Shown piece by piece: positions 7,735-18,591 of a stretch of 64,000 nt of DNA (within the stretch, counting starts at the first letter, position 1; each line of letters begins with the position of its first letter). Source of the stretch: Streptococcus suis (GTDB lineage: Bacteria; Bacillota; Bacilli; Lactobacillales; Streptococcaceae); the NCBI GenBank assembly GCA_024583055.1, contig CP102145.1, forward strand, positions 1,240,001 through 1,304,000, written 5' to 3'. The translations under genes and the position numbers were made by a program. The notes below the pieces were generated by a model. That model ran no database searches. It had not been told where the DNA came from and saw only the letters and a list, made by a program, of their open reading frames with translations.

Positions 7735-8568
7735 TTATTGAAAGGATTTAGTTCTGTATTGGACAGGACTAAGTCCTTTTAATTTTGCTTTGATTCGTTT
7801 GTTGTTATAGTAAAAAATATAATCAGTGATAACTTTCTCCAGTTGATCCAGAGACTTGAAACTCTTTTCAAATCCGTAAAACATTTCTGTTTTCAAGACG
7901 CCAAAGAAAGACTCCATCATCCCATTATCTGGGCTATTCCCTTTGCGGGACATGGATGGTCGAATGCCTTTTGTTTCCAAAAAGTAATGGTAAGACTGGT
8001 GCTGGTATTGCCAACCTTGATCGCTGTGGAGAATAGTCCCACTGTATAAATCTGCTGGAAAAGCCTTCGCAAGCATGGTTTGAACCTGTTTCAAGTCAGG
8101 TGACCGAGACAGGGTAAAAGCAATAATCTCACTATTATAGCCGTCAAGAACAGGCGATAAGTAGAGTTTCCCTTCAGGCAAAGCAAACTCCGTCACATCG
8201 GTATAACATTTTTCATAAGGCTTAGATCCCTCAAACTGACGTTTAATCAGATTATCAGCCTTCTTACCCACCTCACCTTTGTAAGAAGCATACTTGCGCT
8301 TACGACGAATACGAGCCGCTAAGCCCATTACTGTCATCAAGCGCTGCACCTTTTTGTGGTTGATGAAGAAACCTCGATTTCTGAGTTCTAAATAAATCCG
8401 ACGATAGCCGTAATTACCTTTATGGTCATCATAAATGGCTTGAATTTCAGCCTTAATTGCTTTGTTCTTTTCGGGTTTATCCAGTTGCTTGACTTGATAA
8501 TAATAAGTTGAGCGAGGCATTTTAGCTGTCGCAAGTAGGAGGTCTAGTCGGAATCCTCCTTGGACCAT
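7735..8568 (-). CDS. IS3-family transposase OrfB (DDE integrase domain)
   Basis: Catalytic half of the transposase, 277 residues in the frame shown. It has an HTH_21-like N-terminal part ([16 protein letters not shown]) and an rve core with the acidic residues in [15 protein letters not shown] and [12 protein letters not shown]. It overlaps orfA by 25 bases in the -1 frame. It is probably made mostly as an OrfAB fusion by frameshifting at 8631-8637. It ends 30 bases from the left inverted repeat. Confidence 0.92.
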
Positions 8569-9080
8569 ATCTCTAATTGTTTCTGCTGTTCGCGCACTAG
8601 TGCTTCGTCCCTCAAGCGAAGTTCTCTCAACTTTTTTAGGAAGGCCACCTCAGTTCGAAGACGTTCATTTTCCTCTTGAAGGCGCTCTAATTCCGTCATT
8701 TCTTCCCAGGTTTTCTTGCGTTTACGTCCCATCTTGCTCGGTCTCCCTCTTGTTTTTTCAAGAATAGTATACCCGTTTTTCTTGTATTGTGCTATCCAAT
8801 TGGGAAGCATTCCTCGATTTGGCAAGGCATAGTCAAGGGAAACTGAGAGTTGAGAACATCCATGAATCAAAACCTTATCCATTATTTCTTGCTTTAATTC
8901 GGGTGAATAATACCTATTTTTACCTTTTTCAACGATTTCCACGCCATATCGATCCATGAGTTTTATCATGTAGGTGAGATTGGCAATAGTGACCTTGTAT
9001 ATCTGGCTAAGGTTGACCCACGACACGCCACTCTTTCTCAGCTCATATATTTCTAGTTTATCTTCATAACTTAATTTCAT
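8544..9080 (-). CDS. IS3-family transposase OrfA (HTH plus leucine zipper)
   Basis: DNA-binding half of the transposase, 178 residues. Two helix-turn-helix units lie in the first 120 residues and a coiled coil in [22 protein letters not shown]. At codons 148-150 the mRNA reads C-UAA-AAA-AG, so the IS150-type slippery heptamer A-AAA-AAG is in frame (8637-8631). From there the -1 frame is open through to OrfB, which I checked by translation. Confidence 0.9.
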
Positions 9081-11851: not shown

Positions 11852-13111
11852 TTAGAAAAATACACGCATAATGTCATTCCAAGTCACGACCAGCATGAGG
11901 ACAACCATGATTGCAACTCCTGCTAGAGTGATATAGGATTCTGTTTCTGGTTTAAGTGGTTTTCTGCGAATACCTTCTAGAATATTCATAACGATTTTAC
12001 CGCCATCAAGGGCCGGAATCGGAATGAGATTGAAAATTCCTACGTTTATCGACAACATAGCCATCAGTCCAATAATGGACATCCAACCATCTTGAGCCGC
12101 TTGATTGCTGACAGAGTAAATAGCCACAGGACCACCTAGTTGCTTGACATCAAAGCCGGCAATCAGATTTTTCAAGGCTGTGACAATCATGAGAGCTGTC
12201 GCTCCGGCCTGCTGGACACCACCAATAATCTTGTCCAAGACACCCGTCTTCAAAATAGGGGAAACACCTAGTCTGTAGGTGCCATCTTCCTGCTTGGCAG
12301 TCACAGACACATTCTTCTCAGTCCCGTCCTGCTCCACAAGCAAGTCAAACTTAGGAGCACTGCTAGCATCCTGAACTGCCTGCCCAATCACCTTAGAAAT
12401 ATCGGCGTAAGAATCTGTTACCTGACCATTGACCGAGAGAATCTTATCTCCAGTCTCTAATCCAGCAGCTGCAAGGGCACTACCCTCTACAACTGTCACC
12501 TGATTGCTAGACGTGTCGGCCACACCGCCCTGCATGAACATAAGCAGGATGAAGGCCAAAACACCGAGGATAAAGTTGTTCATGGGACCCGCAAAGTTAG
12601 TCATGAGCCGACCCCAGATCGTCGCATTTTGATACTGGACATCCAGCGGTGCAATGCGGACTTCCGTCCCATCTTCCTCGACAATGGTCGCGTCGTGGTC
12701 CACCTTATAGGTCTTGGTCTCATCCAGGACAAGACCAGTGATTTCCAGCTTATCTTCAAAGTCAAAGCCGGTCACATTCATGGGCAGACTGTTGACATCA
12801 AAGCCCTTACCCGATAGGTTGATTCGAGTCACAATGCCGTCTGAATTGAGGGTCAAACTGGCCGGTGTCCCGGTCTTAATCTCCATCTTGTCCTCGCCCC
12901 AGCCAGCCATACGAACATAGCCGCCAAGCGGAAGAATACGAATCGTATAGACCGTCCCGTCCTTGCCCGTATGAGCGAAAATTTTCGGACCCATACCAAT
13001 GGCAAATTCCCGAACCAGGATGCCTGCTTTTTTGGCGAAATAGAAGTGACCAAATTCATGGATAACCACAATCACGCCAAAGATAAAAATAAATGCTAAA
13101 ATTCCCTTCAT
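11852..13111 (-). CDS. eep: Site-2 membrane zinc metalloprotease RseP/Eep
   Basis: Intramembrane protease, 419 residues. The zinc motif is HEFGH (His18, Glu19, His22) in the first membrane helix. A PDZ domain covers roughly residues 185-270 ([23 protein letters not shown]). The second active-site motif [10 protein letters not shown] sits in a late helix. In streptococci and enterococci Eep cuts lipoprotein signal peptides and matures peptide pheromones of the SHP and ComS kinds. That matters because a candidate pheromone gene lies 2.7 kb away. It starts 9 bases after cdsA and belongs to the same transcript. Confidence 0.95.
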
Positions 13112-14692: not shown

Positions 14693-14719
14693 GACTTTTC
14701 CTCAAGCTATAATCAGTCT

Positions 14720-14730
14720 ATTATACCACA
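14720..14730 (-). promoter_or_regulatory. Extended -10 promoter of the uppS operon
   Basis: The minus strand reads TGTGGTATAAT about 30 bases before the uppS ATG. The operon therefore has its own promoter downstream of the inserted cassette. Confidence 0.6.
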
Positions 14731-14772
14731 GTCTCTAGTTTTTAAGCAAAAAGCACATCATGAGGATAAGAT

Positions 14773-14798
14773 AAAAACCAAGGATTCCCCTGGTTTTT
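14773..14798 (-). terminator. Terminator after the rgg-type gene
   Basis: AAAAACCA and TGGTTTTT pair around AGGATTCCCC, which can extend the stem, with a T run on the minus strand. It separates the cassette from uppS. Confidence 0.7.
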
Positions 14799-14849
14799 CT
14801 GTCCATATTGTTCTAACCGAATATTTTGAGTTTGAGACAGGATTAGAAA

Positions 14850-15707
14850 CTAATGTTGCATAAAGCTACGGTCAATCTCCATTTTAATTTGCTGCAAGGC
14901 AAGATTATCACCGCATAGTTCAAGTAAATCGACACCTTTTTCAATCAGAGATTGGTTTGATTGGCAAATGCCTAGTCGAACCCATGCAAATCCTAAAAAA
15001 TCGTAACGTTTCGTTTTTTGAGCAACATCCAGCATTCTATCAGCAAACTCAGTTGCCTGTTTTATTCGTCCGTTAGCTAGATAAACCGTCGATAGGTTAG
15101 CATAAATACCAAACTTTTTATCAATCACCTCTATAAAGCCGTCATACTTATCAAGTGTTAGTAAAATTTTATCTGTCAAATACTCCAACGACTCAAATGA
15201 TAAAGAAAATAACACTGCTGTCAAAAATTTCAAATCACTCAAATACCAAGTATCATGTTTTTCCAAATAAGTAAGAATTTGATCAACAAATTCTTGGCGC
15301 TCCTCCACCTTCTCAGTCAAACCATTTTCTCGAATATGATTAACAAGTCGCAAGCGTAAAAAAATATTTTGGATGGTAATATCATGACTCCTTTTCAAAT
15401 ACCGCTCACAGTCCTCCAGTATATCGCGGATTCCATTAGTTCCAAGCAACGCTGGAATATCTTGCATTTTGTCCAAAATTTTTTGGCGTTCCGATGGATG
15501 ATAAAGATTACAAATATATACAAACTCTTCGACAGTCATATCTATTTGGTCCAGTAAGTATAGCATGTGTTCAAAGCTAGGAATTGATTTACAATTTTCG
15601 AACTTAGATAAGGAGACACGTGAAATCTCATTACCACAAACATCCTCCTGACTCAAACCCTTAGACTTTCTAATATCTCTATAAACTTTGCCAACATCCC
15701 ATCTCAT
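14850..15707 (-). CDS. Rgg/GadR/MutR-family transcriptional regulator
   Basis: Regulator of 285 residues. An XRE-type helix-turn-helix spans about residues 5-60 (VGKVYRDIRKSKGLSQEDV...ISRVSLSKFENCKSIPS). The rest is a helical, TPR-like region of the Rgg type, which in relatives binds a short imported peptide. It is transcribed away from a 31-residue peptide gene, and their starts are 105 bases apart, the layout of Rgg-SHP, ComR-ComS and RtgR-RtgS pairs. The RBS is AGAGG. Its bases look more AT-rich than those of the uppS operon next door. Which Rgg subgroup it belongs to cannot be settled without a tree. Confidence 0.85.
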   Translation of the reverse strand: MRWDVGKVYRDIRKSKGLSQEDVCGNEISRVSLSKFENCKSIPSFEHMLYLLDQIDMTVEEFVYICNLYHPSERQKILDKMQDIPALLGTNGIRDILEDCERYLKRSHDITIQNIFLRLRLVNHIRENGLTEKVEERQEFVDQILTYLEKHDTWYLSDLKFLTAVLFSLSFESLEYLTDKILLTLDKYDGFIEVIDKKFGIYANLSTVYLANGRIKQATEFADRMLDVAQKTKRYDFLGFAWVRLGICQSNQSLIEKGVDLLELCGDNLALQQIKMEIDRSFMQH

Positions 15708-15725
15708 AGTAATCCTCTCTATACT

Positions 15726-15776
15726 TTGTAACTAAAGTTTACATTTTATATAAGCTCTTTTTATTTATGTTAAAAT
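15726..15776 (+). promoter_or_regulatory. Candidate Rgg box and promoter of the peptide gene
   Basis: An imperfect inverted repeat TGTAAC-TAAAG-TTTACA lies at 15727-15743. An extended -10, TGTTAAAAT (TAAAAT at 15771-15776), follows, and no good -35 is visible. The repeat would centre about 48 bases before the transcript start, where Rgg-type activators bind. ACTAAAGTTT from this site recurs at 15945-15954. Confidence 0.5.
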
Positions 15777-15811
15777 TATAACATAAAATACAACAATACC
15801 GGAGGTATGTT

Positions 15812-15907
15812 ATGAAAAAGTTTCAATTTCATTACTTTATACTAGCCTTATCAATGGTTATTACTACGCTTTCAGCTAGCGATTTCCCTTGGTTTTGGTG
15901 GCTATAG
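15812..15907 (+). CDS. Candidate peptide pheromone precursor (31 aa, Trp-rich C-terminus)
   Basis: Small gene with an ideal GGAGG 6 bases before its ATG. The product has a basic N-terminus (MKKFQFHYF), a hydrophobic middle (ILALSMVITTLS) and the C-terminus ASDFPWFWWL. It thus contains both a W-x-W and a W-W motif. Known Rgg-bound pheromones of the ComS (XIP) class end in a double tryptophan and RtgS-type peptides carry W-x-W, so the mature signal may be the last 8-9 residues. It is divergent from the rgg-type gene and followed by a secreted hydrolase. I do not recognise the exact sequence. No maturation site is proven; Eep at 11852 is the obvious candidate protease. Confidence 0.75.
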   Translation: MKKFQFHYFILALSMVITTLSASDFPWFWWL

Positions 15908-15986
15908 ATATTTATACTTTAGAAAGTCTAGGTGATTCCCATGTACTAAAGTTTCAACCACATCTCTAATTTCCCCCAGAAAAGAC

Positions 15987-16021
15987 CGTCATCTTTATCT
16001 GAGCAAATTCAAAAGATGACG
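15987..16021 (+). terminator. Hairpin between peptide gene and hydrolase gene (possible attenuator)
   Basis: Perfect 10-bp arms CGTCATCTTT and AAAGATGACG around a 15-base loop. A weak T-rich stretch follows (CTATTTCAATTTTCTTT). It may end most peptide transcripts and let some read on into the hydrolase gene. Confidence 0.5.
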
Positions 16022-16066
16022 CTAGCTATTTCAATTTTCTTTGCTTCCAATAAGGAGGAATTCAAA

Positions 16067-16780
16067 CTGAAAAATAAAAAATTATTGACAGCTTTCTCTG
16101 TCCTCTGTCTATCCTTGGCTTTACCTGTAGCTACAATAAAAGCTGAAGATAGCACTGACTTATATCGTGATGCTAATACTTCTGTCGGAAATGATGTACA
16201 ACTAACTCCTGAGCAAGAGTCTATTCTGGAAAATATGCCTAATTTAGAGCAGGAATATTTAGAATATGGTTTAACAGCACCTGTACAGGCCGATGTCAAA
16301 GATCGCACCCGTGCCCGCATCGGAACTTGGAGTTGGCGTGATGGACTAATCTGTGTTACCACCCAAGGCTTCGGAACCAAAAGTATTAATACATGGCATG
16401 CCGCTATTGTTGCCCCTCAAGATGTTCATGTTGTAGCTGAAGCTCCTAGAAAAGGCGAAAATATTAGACTTAAAAGCGGAGAATGGACTAGCAGTTCCCA
16501 CACAATCTGGCAAGTAGGTGTGAATGCAACTAGTGTGCAACAGGATTGGAACGCCGGACATTGGGCAGGACAGCAAGTTGGGAAACCTTATAACATCAAC
16601 TTCTGGAATGCCAGACAAACAGGAAGTTTTTACTGCTCTCAATTAGTTTGGGCAGCTTACTATTATACTGCTGGTGTTGACTTAAATAAAAGCGATAACG
16701 ATGCTGGAGCAGCTATTGCTATCCATCCTGGTGAGTTTGTAAACAACCCCAAAACAACCATTGTCTATAGGAACCGATAA
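16067..16780 (+). CDS. Secreted permuted-papain (YiiX/YaeF-like) cysteine hydrolase, likely CTG start
   Basis: A predicted exported enzyme of 237 residues. Counting from CTG at 16067, the N-terminus (KNKKLLTAFSVLCLSLALP) is a textbook signal peptide with cleavage after TIKA at about residue 26. The mature part carries NTWHAAIV (His111) and GSFYCSQLVWAAYY (Cys190), with the His before the Cys as in circularly permuted NlpC/P60-like enzymes. These act on peptidoglycan peptides or on acyl amide bonds; the substrate here is unknown. AAGGAGG lies 8 bases before the CTG. The in-frame ATG at 16016 has no RBS, sits inside the hairpin and would bury the signal peptide. The next gene follows after 12 bases. 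Confidence 0.7.
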   Translation: MKNKKLLTAFSVLCLSLALPVATIKAEDSTDLYRDANTSVGNDVQLTPEQESILENMPNLEQEYLEYGLTAPVQADVKDRTRARIGTWSWRDGLICVTTQGFGTKSINTWHAAIVAPQDVHVVAEAPRKGENIRLKSGEWTSSSHTIWQVGVNATSVQQDWNAGHWAGQQVGKPYNINFWNARQTGSFYCSQLVWAAYYYTAGVDLNKSDNDAGAAIAIHPGEFVNNPKTTIVYRNR

Positions 16781-16792
16781 TGGAGGTGGTTT

Positions 16793-17911
16793 ATGAAAAG
16801 GTTAAAGAAAATACTTTTATTAATTGTCGGATTGATGATAGCCATAAGTATTTATTTAATTGCAACCAAAATTCTATCCAATCCGACAATAGATATTAAC
16901 TCTGAGGCAGATTTCTATATCATCAGCAATAACAATATCACTGGATACCGCTTTGAAAACAAGGAATTTATTCCCGTCTCTACAAACTCAATTGAGCTTG
17001 TAAAAGGGCAAATAAACCCTACTGTCCATCGTGCAGAATTGGAAAATCGTTATTTGGTTTTTTCAGAAGAAGGTCCTCCGTTAGGGGTTGTCGGACGGAT
17101 TATTTCCATTGATTTTGAAGATGGGAAAATTCGATATAACAAAACACCTGAGTATGCCTACACCTCCTCGGGTCAATATCAAAATCTTTACTTCACATCT
17201 GAAGCCAATACAGGAGAAACCTTCATCGCCTCATTTGATTCGAATCTAAACAAAAAAAACAAATATATTTTTGAAGAACCCCTACTAGGAAATGATTTTA
17301 AAGCAGATGGAGACTATATCTACTTTCTGGGCACAAAGGTACATGGACAAGGAACTTTTCCTACAGATCTATATAAATTGTCTATCAATAATGGTGAAAT
17401 ACGTTTGGAAAGCAAGGAGACTCTTTTTGAAAACTCAGATACCACCTATTCTTTTGAAGACACTATTATAAAAAACAACAGTCTATTTGCTGTTGTGAAT
17501 GGGCGCCGAGATTCTCCCTATGCGTCATGGGTACCCATTGGTAAAATTCTCCACTATGACTTAGACTCTAAGCAAAGTGAATTTATTGATTTACCTGAAA
17601 TTTCACCAACCAACATCTACGACCTTGGTCAAGATATATTGGCAATAGAACACGAACGAAATGACTCTGGCAAGGTCTGCTTTAGCCTTTTCAATACCCG
17701 TGATTATTCTACTCAATTCGTAGACCTTTCTCAATATGGTCTTTCTAGTAATCAAGCTTACATAAAAGATGTAAAAAGAATTAATTCTGACACAATTCTC
17801 ATACTAGCTGGAAATCAATTAATTGCATACAATACAGACGCAAACGAAGCTGTTACTTCTATGGACTCTATCGAAGAAAACTCGTTTCACATTTGGTCAA
17901 AATTTAGATAA
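16793..17911 (+). CDS. Membrane-anchored beta-propeller-like protein of unknown function
   Basis: Protein of 372 residues with GGAGG upstream and an N-terminal membrane anchor (residues 6-27, KILLLIVGLMIAISIYLIA). The outside part consists of repeated short beta-rich stretches such as ITGYRFENKEF, GRIISIDFEDGKIRYN, DLYKLSINNGEIRL and GKILHYDLDSKQSEFIDL, which suggest a propeller. I do not recognise a family. It is co-transcribed with the hydrolase at 16067 and may hold or modulate it at the cell surface. That is inference from the neighbour only. Confidence 0.7.
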   Translation: MKRLKKILLLIVGLMIAISIYLIATKILSNPTIDINSEADFYIISNNNITGYRFENKEFIPVSTNSIELVKGQINPTVHRAELENRYLVFSEEGPPLGVVGRIISIDFEDGKIRYNKTPEYAYTSSGQYQNLYFTSEANTGETFIASFDSNLNKKNKYIFEEPLLGNDFKADGDYIYFLGTKVHGQGTFPTDLYKLSINNGEIRLESKETLFENSDTTYSFEDTIIKNNSLFAVVNGRRDSPYASWVPIGKILHYDLDSKQSEFIDLPEISPTNIYDLGQDILAIEHERNDSGKVCFSLFNTRDYSTQFVDLSQYGLSSNQAYIKDVKRINSDTILILAGNQLIAYNTDANEAVTSMDSIEENSFHIWSKFR

Positions 17912-18217
17912 AGTTTGTTTGTAAGTATACTTTTCAAAAATATACAATATTTACCGCTGCGGAGAGGTACCGCTACCACAGGAAGCAGTTGAAAAACTAA
18001 ACAATTAGCAATAACGAATCTTAGTAAATTCCTGCTAATACTCAAAGAAAATCAAAAGTAGCTGAGCCTAGGAAACGAAGTTGACGATAGAACTTAGGTT
18101 CATTGATAAGAGTTGAGAGTGGATAAGATGATTCTCCAAGAGTGAAATTTCTCACTTACAGAACGTAACACTCTCATGCAACCCATCATCTATCTCTATA
18201 CCTACCTATACACAAAA
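17912..18217. other. Intergenic stretch without a gene
   Basis: About 300 AT-rich bases between the cassette and the yajC terminator. No open frame with an RBS is seen on either strand. It holds the repeat-like segment at 18037-18117 and otherwise nothing I can name. Confidence 0.5.
18037..18117. repeat. Streptococcal-type intergenic repeat fragment
   Basis: The opening AATACTCAAAGAAAATCAAA is familiar to me from dispersed repeats in streptococcal genomes. The segment includes arms AGCCTAGG and CTTAGGTT that can pair with two G-U pairs. There is no second copy in this window to prove it. Confidence 0.4.
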
Positions 18218-18260
18218 AGAGTTATTGACTCCCAAAATTAGCTGGGCAGTCAATAACTCT
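18218..18260 (-). terminator. Terminator of yajC (bidirectional)
   Basis: AGAGTTATTGACT(CCC) pairs with (GGG)CAGTCAATAACTCT over more than 15 bases. T runs follow on the minus strand (TTTTTGTG) and partly on the plus strand. It closes off yajC from the inserted cassette. Confidence 0.85.
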
Positions 18261-18267
18261 CTTTTCT

Positions 18268-18591
18268 TCACTCTTCAATGACTGATTCTTGAACAGGTGC
18301 AGCGACTTCTACAGCTGGTTCTTCTGCCACTACTGTTGTCGTTGCAGCCGGTGTCACACGATTGCGAATGGCACCACGTTCGAAGGTCAAATAAACACCG
18401 TCCACATCCAGAACGACCTTCTTGTCGTCGATTTCATCAACGATACCAAACAAGCCACCTATGGTCACGATTTCGTCACCTTTTTTGATTTGACTAAGGG
18501 CGTCTTGGCGCTGTCTCTGTTGCTTACGCTGTGAATAAAACATGAAACCAACCATAGCCACCATGATTAGGGGTAAAAATAAACCTTCCAT
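18268..18591 (-). CDS. yajC: Preprotein translocase subunit YajC
   Basis: Small Sec accessory membrane protein, 107 residues. One membrane helix covers about residues 3-18 and is followed by RKQQRQRQDALSQIKKGDEIVTIGGLFGIVDEID, the YajC signature. The C-terminal tail is rich in Ala, Val and Glu. It forms its own unit here, ended by the long terminator at 18218-18260. Confidence 0.93.
   Translation of the reverse strand: MEGLFLPLIMVAMVGFMFYSQRKQQRQRQDALSQIKKGDEIVTIGGLFGIVDEIDDKKVVLDVDGVYLTFERGAIRNRVTPAATTTVVAEEPAVEVAAPVQESVIEE

Follow-up and report, generated by a model that had tools for sequence, protein, structure and literature searches.

A putative Rgg/WxW pheromone cassette with a secreted C92 enzyme and a membrane-anchored propeller protein in Streptococcus suis

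What does a pheromone-like gene control when it is followed by genes for a secreted enzyme and a membrane-anchored protein? This question is raised by a locus of Streptococcus suis (GenBank assembly GCA_024583055.1, contig CP102145.1), which we analysed within the 64,000-nucleotide (nt) stretch from positions 1,240,001 to 1,304,000, hereafter the window. The components listed in the initial annotation, namely an Rgg-type regulator, a divergent 31-codon gene whose product ends in SDFPWFWWL, a secreted hydrolase and an anchored propeller-like protein, are all present. The regulator and peptide genes are divergent, on opposite strands with their starts 104 nt apart, and the enzyme and propeller genes are found downstream of the peptide gene in the same orientation. 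With a probability of roughly 0.6, we interpret the locus as an acquired Rgg/WxW quorum-sensing cassette of the RtgR/RtgS kind that drives an antibacterial enzyme and its immunity protein.

According to this interpretation, the 31-residue precursor would be exported and trimmed to a C-terminal peptide near (SD)FPWFWWL. An oligopeptide permease would then import the mature peptide. Once bound to it, the Rgg protein would act at an inverted repeat at 15724-15748 and activate both the peptide gene, giving positive feedback, and the genes that follow it in the same orientation. The enzyme would be secreted by the Sec pathway, its most likely target being acyl lipids or lipoproteins of neighbouring bacteria, and the membrane-anchored beta-propeller would most likely shield the producer. 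We infer each of these steps, from maturation and transcription to enzyme substrate, killing and immunity.

Regulator, peptide and promoter

Rgg/WxW pheromone pairs have been proposed as a distinct group by Wang et al. 2020 (PMC7018657). In the RtgR/RtgS system of that study, the C-terminal 8-12 residues of RtgS activate via RtgR, activation requires PptAB and Ami, and an inverted repeat before the RtgS peptide gene is required. Sequence comparisons give good support to the view that the signalling half of our locus is a new member of this group and no new kind of signalling. As the group is already published (PMC7018657), we rejected a new signalling class, and the novelty that the initial annotation had attributed to the signalling combination is lost. 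The joint presence of WxW and WW in one peptide, which it pointed out, is not special either, as the SSA_2251 peptide (…SVFPWWWLWW) holds both (PMC7018657).

The assignment is based on regulators located beside peptides that match published ones, which stood in for the published regulator sequences. Those found beside peptides matching RtgS, SHP1518 and SSA_2251 are 41-43% identical to that of the window over their full lengths. The peptide of locus L165, whose regulator is 41% identical, ends in AIIFPWGWPI, the RtgS type A C-terminus; that of L110 ends in WFETWFWG and is of the SHP1518 type; and those of L129 and L139 (…SVFPWWW.WW) show few differences from the SSA_2251 peptide. The window peptide contains WFW within FPWFWWL, and its precursor has a hydrophobic, export-like N-terminus. 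Mature peptides of the group lack the conserved Asp/Glu of SHPs; in the window precursor, one Asp (SDFPWFWWL) is eighth from the end, a position that may or may not fall within the mature peptide.

Regulator matches at E 1e-10 or better were detected in 121 of 197 genus genomes; the best one outside the own genome, in Streptococcus plurextorum (L097), is 46% identical. A scan of the named genomes with the Rgg protein gave no match. We assembled 108 Rgg loci, comprising the window, its own paralogue, the listed full-length matches to about E 1e-50, and L093 and L098, found via their C92 enzymes; fragments and weaker matches were excluded. Short open reading frames (ORFs) preceded by a ribosome-binding site (RBS) and with two or more Trp among their final 11 residues were found on the divergent side, within 350 nt, in 36 of these loci. 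In 20 shuffles, such ORFs averaged 0.3 and never exceeded 2, and the opposite strand had 0/108. These counts and the identities given above bear out the earlier proposal that the regulator and the peptide belong together.

In its own genome, the regulator matches at E 1e-3, besides itself, only a 37% identical paralogue and a 23% identical Rgg protein. The paralogue (L002:1501-2361, locus L100) lies in a context common to S. suis-like genomes, and no Trp-rich peptide was found beside it under the criteria used. The general models of the Rgg C-terminal region score the window regulator below their cut-offs (PF21259, 26.6 of 27 bits; TIGR01716, 28.4 of 36.9 bits). The L165 regulator, beside its RtgS-type peptide, is also below both cut-offs, those of L011 and L097 pass PF21259 only and that of L110 passes both; since L165 fails both too, these cut-offs do not bound the WxW group.

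A tree was built from 38 of 106 regulators after merging those more than 88% identical, with L093, L159 and L182 excluded as too short. The window regulator pairs with that of S. plurextorum (Shimodaira-Hasegawa-like approximate likelihood-ratio test, SH-aLRT, 92), and the pair joins L188, L189, L098 and L197 (SH-aLRT 81). The single outgroup has a very long branch; because of this, and because neither branch reaches 95, we did not count independent captures of the enzyme pair.

Alignment of the stretches between regulator and peptide starts revealed a shared inverted repeat with the consensus AAATGTGAatAAAgTtTACATTTTt. A motif was learned from 26 distinct inter-start regions, the window left aside, with one site per region forced; its training sites score 13.5-31.0 bits. 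The window site at 15724-15748 scores 17.0 bits, a value reached by 0 of 5000 dinucleotide shuffles (largest 13.9), and the second-best site in the 64-kb window scores 7.6 bits. In S. plurextorum, which was not among the 26 training loci, the best site scores 15.2 bits at the same place and differs from that of the window at 3 of 25 positions. The paralogous locus L100 reaches 6.8 bits upstream of its start; among the eleven loci scanned, the highest remaining score is 11.5, inside L098. The exact core is present as a single copy in the genome. Only the exact site counts, as the pattern with up to three mismatches gave fewer matches (7) than a reversed control pattern (15). One site with a single mismatch (G000:C1:247851) is some 40 nt upstream of an ORF, and neither a peptide nor cargo was recognised in its vicinity.

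The candidate -10 element TATAAC was not picked up by a sigma-70 consensus scan, nor was a good -35 element; the missing -35 would fit an activator-dependent promoter. We considered the palindrome at the -10 element, TTATGTTAAAATTATAACATAA, as an operator and set it aside, since it was not seen in the other loci, whereas the 15724-15748 repeat is common to them. The stretch 15942-15956 behind the peptide gene holds a degenerate string similar to the operator, TGTACTAAAGTTTCA, which may be left over from a promoter duplication like that in S. plurextorum. The ComRS type was rejected on gene arrangement alone, the peptide gene being divergent here, unlike in the ComS arrangement (PMC7018657).

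From these comparisons, the locus very probably contains a WxW-type system that works, or did until recently, and that controls the two downstream genes. As far as comparisons go, the peptide probably activates both its own promoter and the enzyme-propeller pair downstream, the latter as the initial annotation had proposed. The locus would supply the little-studied Rgg/WxW group with a member that has an enzyme cargo, and with a candidate operator motif.

Among the closest known systems is RtgR/RtgS of Streptococcus pneumoniae (PMC7018657), which likewise has an Rgg regulator, a divergent WxW peptide, an inverted repeat before the peptide gene and targets behind it, but RtgR drives a peptidase-containing ATP-binding cassette (ABC) transporter and double-glycine peptides rather than a C92 enzyme and a propeller. 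Rgg1518/SHP1518 of S. pneumoniae and SSA_2251 of Streptococcus sanguinis belong to the same group and have W-rich peptides, with other genes behind the peptide and other ends (…WFETWFWG or …FPWWWLWW, versus …FPWFWWL).

The enzyme, its partner and the cargo slot

The enzyme belongs to Peptidase_C92, the YiiX-type permuted NlpC/P60 proteins: it matches PF05708 above cut-off, its His precedes its Cys and the predicted fold is that of YiiX. To our knowledge, neither pheromone control nor a propeller partner has been described for YiiX of Escherichia coli (2if6) or the Bacillus cereus cysteine peptidase 3kw0. Translation probably starts at CTG 16067, judging from a strong RBS (AAGGAGG) 8 nt upstream and from the starts of close relatives there; the ATG at 16016 has no good RBS. 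The AlphaFold2 model of the partner, made for the window's protein only, has a predicted local distance difference test (pLDDT) value of 89 and matches propellers. A second propeller relative, 21% identical, is encoded in the same genome (L101:6612-7679), with no adjoining C92 gene recognised.

The initial annotation missed the more unusual part of the locus, a widespread and conserved enzyme-propeller pair in a slot where relatives have small secreted, partly bacteriocin-type proteins. Of 80 named loci, the 54 best matches were examined; 46 of these have a membrane-anchored ORF directly downstream of the C92 gene, versus 51 of 454 control ORFs. The rule, which asks for a size and anchoring like those of the window's propeller directly behind the C92 gene, was fixed after a first look at the loci; manual reading gave 47 loci where the script gave 46. 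The clear exceptions are L212, L219, L225, L229, L242, L243 and L249. The enzyme-partner pairs span Streptococcus, Lactococcus, Clostridia (Clostridium), Paenibacillus and Actinomycetota (Microlunatus).

Directly behind the C92 gene, each of the 16 Streptococcus loci has a partner-like gene or what is left of one, with the caveat that five of the 16 partners gave no BLAST match to the window's propeller. Of 284 genus genomes, 15 have C92 and 48 the propeller, and 38 of the latter have no C92 match. L088 and L089 have an intact propeller ORF and cleanly lack the enzyme gene, at a site whose two flanks are 96-97% identical to those of Streptococcus pseudopneumoniae (L208); this comparison establishes the absence of the enzyme, and the pattern would be the same under loss or gain. 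The gene is also absent from L090 relative to L208, at 76-92% identity. In 17 of 17 pairs, similarity is lower for the partner than for the enzyme.

The slot behind the promoter is occupied by one of five clusters of small proteins in 30 of the 108 related loci, their signal peptide-like starts having been judged by eye; this classification covers a minority of the loci. Cluster C6 (12/108) corresponds to Lactococcin_972 (PF09683, 79.3 bits) by its scanned representative, and the representatives of C14, C28, C41, C43 and one of C38 have no Pfam match above cut-off. The lactococcin-972-like streptococcins resemble the window's cargo in lying behind window-type regulators and in having a secreted product followed by membrane proteins; they differ in consisting of a small bacteriocin, a large permease and an ABC ATPase instead of an enzyme and a propeller. 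In Streptococcus parasanguinis SK148 (L210), the enzyme-propeller genes follow a lactococcin-972 cassette (PF09683, 30.7 bits), and in Lactococcus garvieae (L213) they are near a similar-looking cassette, as judged by eye. Bacteriocin clusters adjoining Rgg genes are known (PMC6120550). We recognised no literature on C92 enzymes as bacteriocins, a weak negative as the searches were in part loose.

The S. plurextorum locus is near genes that we take to be purA, hslO and dus, as in the window but in another order. Its upstream stretch and peptide are duplicated, the two 95-nt upstream stretches being alike at 82 positions. Behind the first copy are an ABC cassette and a small secreted C41 protein, which has no Pfam match; the second directly precedes the enzyme-propeller genes. 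In another genome (G123, L094:3838-5644), the gene of a more distant Rgg-like regulator (25% over 122 amino acids, aa) is immediately followed, in the same direction, by genes for a C92 enzyme and a lipoprotein; other Rgg types may control the enzyme pair too.

Possible functions of the enzyme-propeller pair

The function of the pair is most plausibly sought in either an antibacterial enzyme with immunity or envelope remodelling. We lean towards the former for the cargo: the enzyme has an adjacent membrane partner, and, like an immunity gene, the propeller is often present where the enzyme is not. Under the same signalling, the two proteins might instead remodel the producer's own envelope by acting on acyl groups of lipoproteins or lipids in a LnsA/LnsB-like manner, the propeller being a localising or substrate-binding partner. 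Indeed, LnsA is YiiX-like and needed for lipoprotein N-acylation, YiiX was crystallised with a fatty acid (both PMC7387801), and an amidase role on fatty-acylated peptides has been suggested for YiiX (PMC3142127). The very widespread pairing (46/54) also speaks for such a role, and Streptococcus bovimastitidis (L096/L242) has kept an intact enzyme beside a frameshifted partner, which would be odd for essential immunity. Nevertheless, the propellers without enzyme and its clean absence in two cases, the lower similarity of the partner in all pairs and the small secreted proteins in the same slot argue against envelope remodelling, which we regard as rather unlikely. An action on animal host cells or lipids, for colonisation or virulence under quorum control, is improbable. 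The genome is near that of S. suis, an animal-associated species (a 4.4-kb stretch elsewhere is 91.7% identical to S. suis YS161), the enzyme is secreted and the YiiX fold is linked to lipids, but related pairs are found in Lactococcus, Clostridium, Paenibacillus and Microlunatus, and a downstream membrane partner that also occurs alone fits bacterial targets better. Lastly, the 31-codon frame could be a Trp-rich leader peptide for attenuation by translation or tryptophan supply, given that three Trp codons are close to its end and that a hairpin lies between the peptide and enzyme genes. We consider this highly improbable: the fold does not surpass that of shuffled sequences (z -0.5), a search of 14700-18300 gave no + strand terminator, there is no Rfam match, the N-terminus of the peptide is hydrophobic and export-like, and RtgS of the same group is a proven pheromone (PMC7018657).

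Several observations, including the S. bovimastitidis locus, weigh against the interpretation as a pheromone-controlled antibacterial enzyme with immunity. The co-occurrence search proposed in the initial annotation succeeded for the 36 loci described above, and gave no peptide with at least two Trp for the other 72 of 108 under the criteria used; in particular, no W-rich peptide was found beside the regulators of the subgroup L190-L196 and L198-L206 (L197 not being part of it). The tree branches around the window's Rgg are moderately supported. Window-type regulators adjoin only four of the 16 Streptococcus C92 loci (the window, L093, L097 and L098); the regulator of Streptococcus ovis (L093) is fragmented, and the peptide of L098 (…GGWILIWPIINK) contains two Trp and no WxW. 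The second copy in S. plurextorum ties the enzyme pair to such a regulator, yet it looks decayed, with an operator score of only -0.6 bits and a broken enzyme gene downstream. The CTG start may mean weak expression of the enzyme. The wide spread of the pair outside streptococci fits an envelope role equally well, and no bacteriocin context was found around the few loci looked at in Clostridia, Paenibacillus and Actinomycetota. Many of the 48 propeller matches are only 20-28% identical, such that their function may differ; at 40% identity or more, 6 of 11 propeller genomes have no C92 match, one of the six having a C92 remnant.

If the pair is toxic, it would represent a Gram-positive, Sec-secreted counterpart of the lipid-cutting NlpC/P60 toxins of type VI secretion systems (T6SSs). 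In Tox-Act1/Imm-Act1 of Salmonella (PMC12994826), too, an antibacterial phospholipase of the permuted NlpC/P60 type is paired with an immunity protein in the membrane. Tox-Act1 differs in being a T6SS effector of a clade apart from YiiX in that paper's tree, and the immunity protein, which carries two transmembrane helices, is not called a propeller there. LnsA/LnsB of Staphylococcus aureus (PMC7387801) likewise consists of a YiiX-like permuted enzyme that requires a second protein, but the partner is a CPBP-like membrane protein encoded elsewhere and the targets are the cell's own lipoproteins. More generally, C92 enzymes and propellers might form a widespread, so far undescribed family of Sec-secreted, lipid-acting antibacterial enzymes with propeller immunity in Gram-positive bacteria, with some streptococci placing the pair under WxW control in a lactococcin-972-type slot; we put this forward tentatively.

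Genomic setting of the locus

The features of the locus are collected in Table 1. The G+C contents of the regulator (0.357), peptide (0.344), C92 (0.422) and propeller (0.352) genes are lower than those of four flanking genes (0.46-0.48). This suggests transfer without proving it, and the locus was therefore probably acquired. A search of a plasmid collection for a mobile element gave no near match to the locus, and a phage collection gave only three Listeria phage records at 24-34% identity.

Table 1. Predicted features of the regulator-peptide-enzyme-propeller locus (window coordinates)
Feature	Position	Strand	Remarks
Rgg-type (RtgR-like) transcriptional regulator, 285 aa	14850..15707	-	Other Streptococcus genomes encode full-length relatives, up to 46% identical
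Predicted operator, imperfect inverted repeat	15724..15748	+	Core TGTAACTAAAGTTTACA at 15727-15743; motif trained on 26 further loci
Candidate -10 element TATAAC of the peptide promoter	15777..15782	+	Aligned with TATCAT-like elements elsewhere
Putative pheromone precursor gene, 31 codons, product ending in SDFPWFWWL	15812..15907	+	
Predicted secreted YiiX-type permuted papain-like enzyme (C92)	16067..16780	+	Probable CTG start at 16067; ORF from ATG 16016
Membrane-anchored beta-propeller, 372 aa, candidate immunity or partner protein	16793..17911	+	AlphaFold2 pLDDT 89, propeller matches

The flanking genes are presumably uppS, yajC, purA, eep, hslO and dus, as judged from their sequences. The one at 11852-13111, about 1.7 kb from the regulator, has the look of eep/rseP and presumably codes for a membrane protease of the type that trims such pheromones. 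An ORF at 8544-9080 resembles part of an IS3-type transposase by eye, and a similar ORF disrupts the propeller gene in L084. In the genome, candidates for the export and uptake machinery include an EcsB/PptB-like protein and two SBP_bac_5 proteins.

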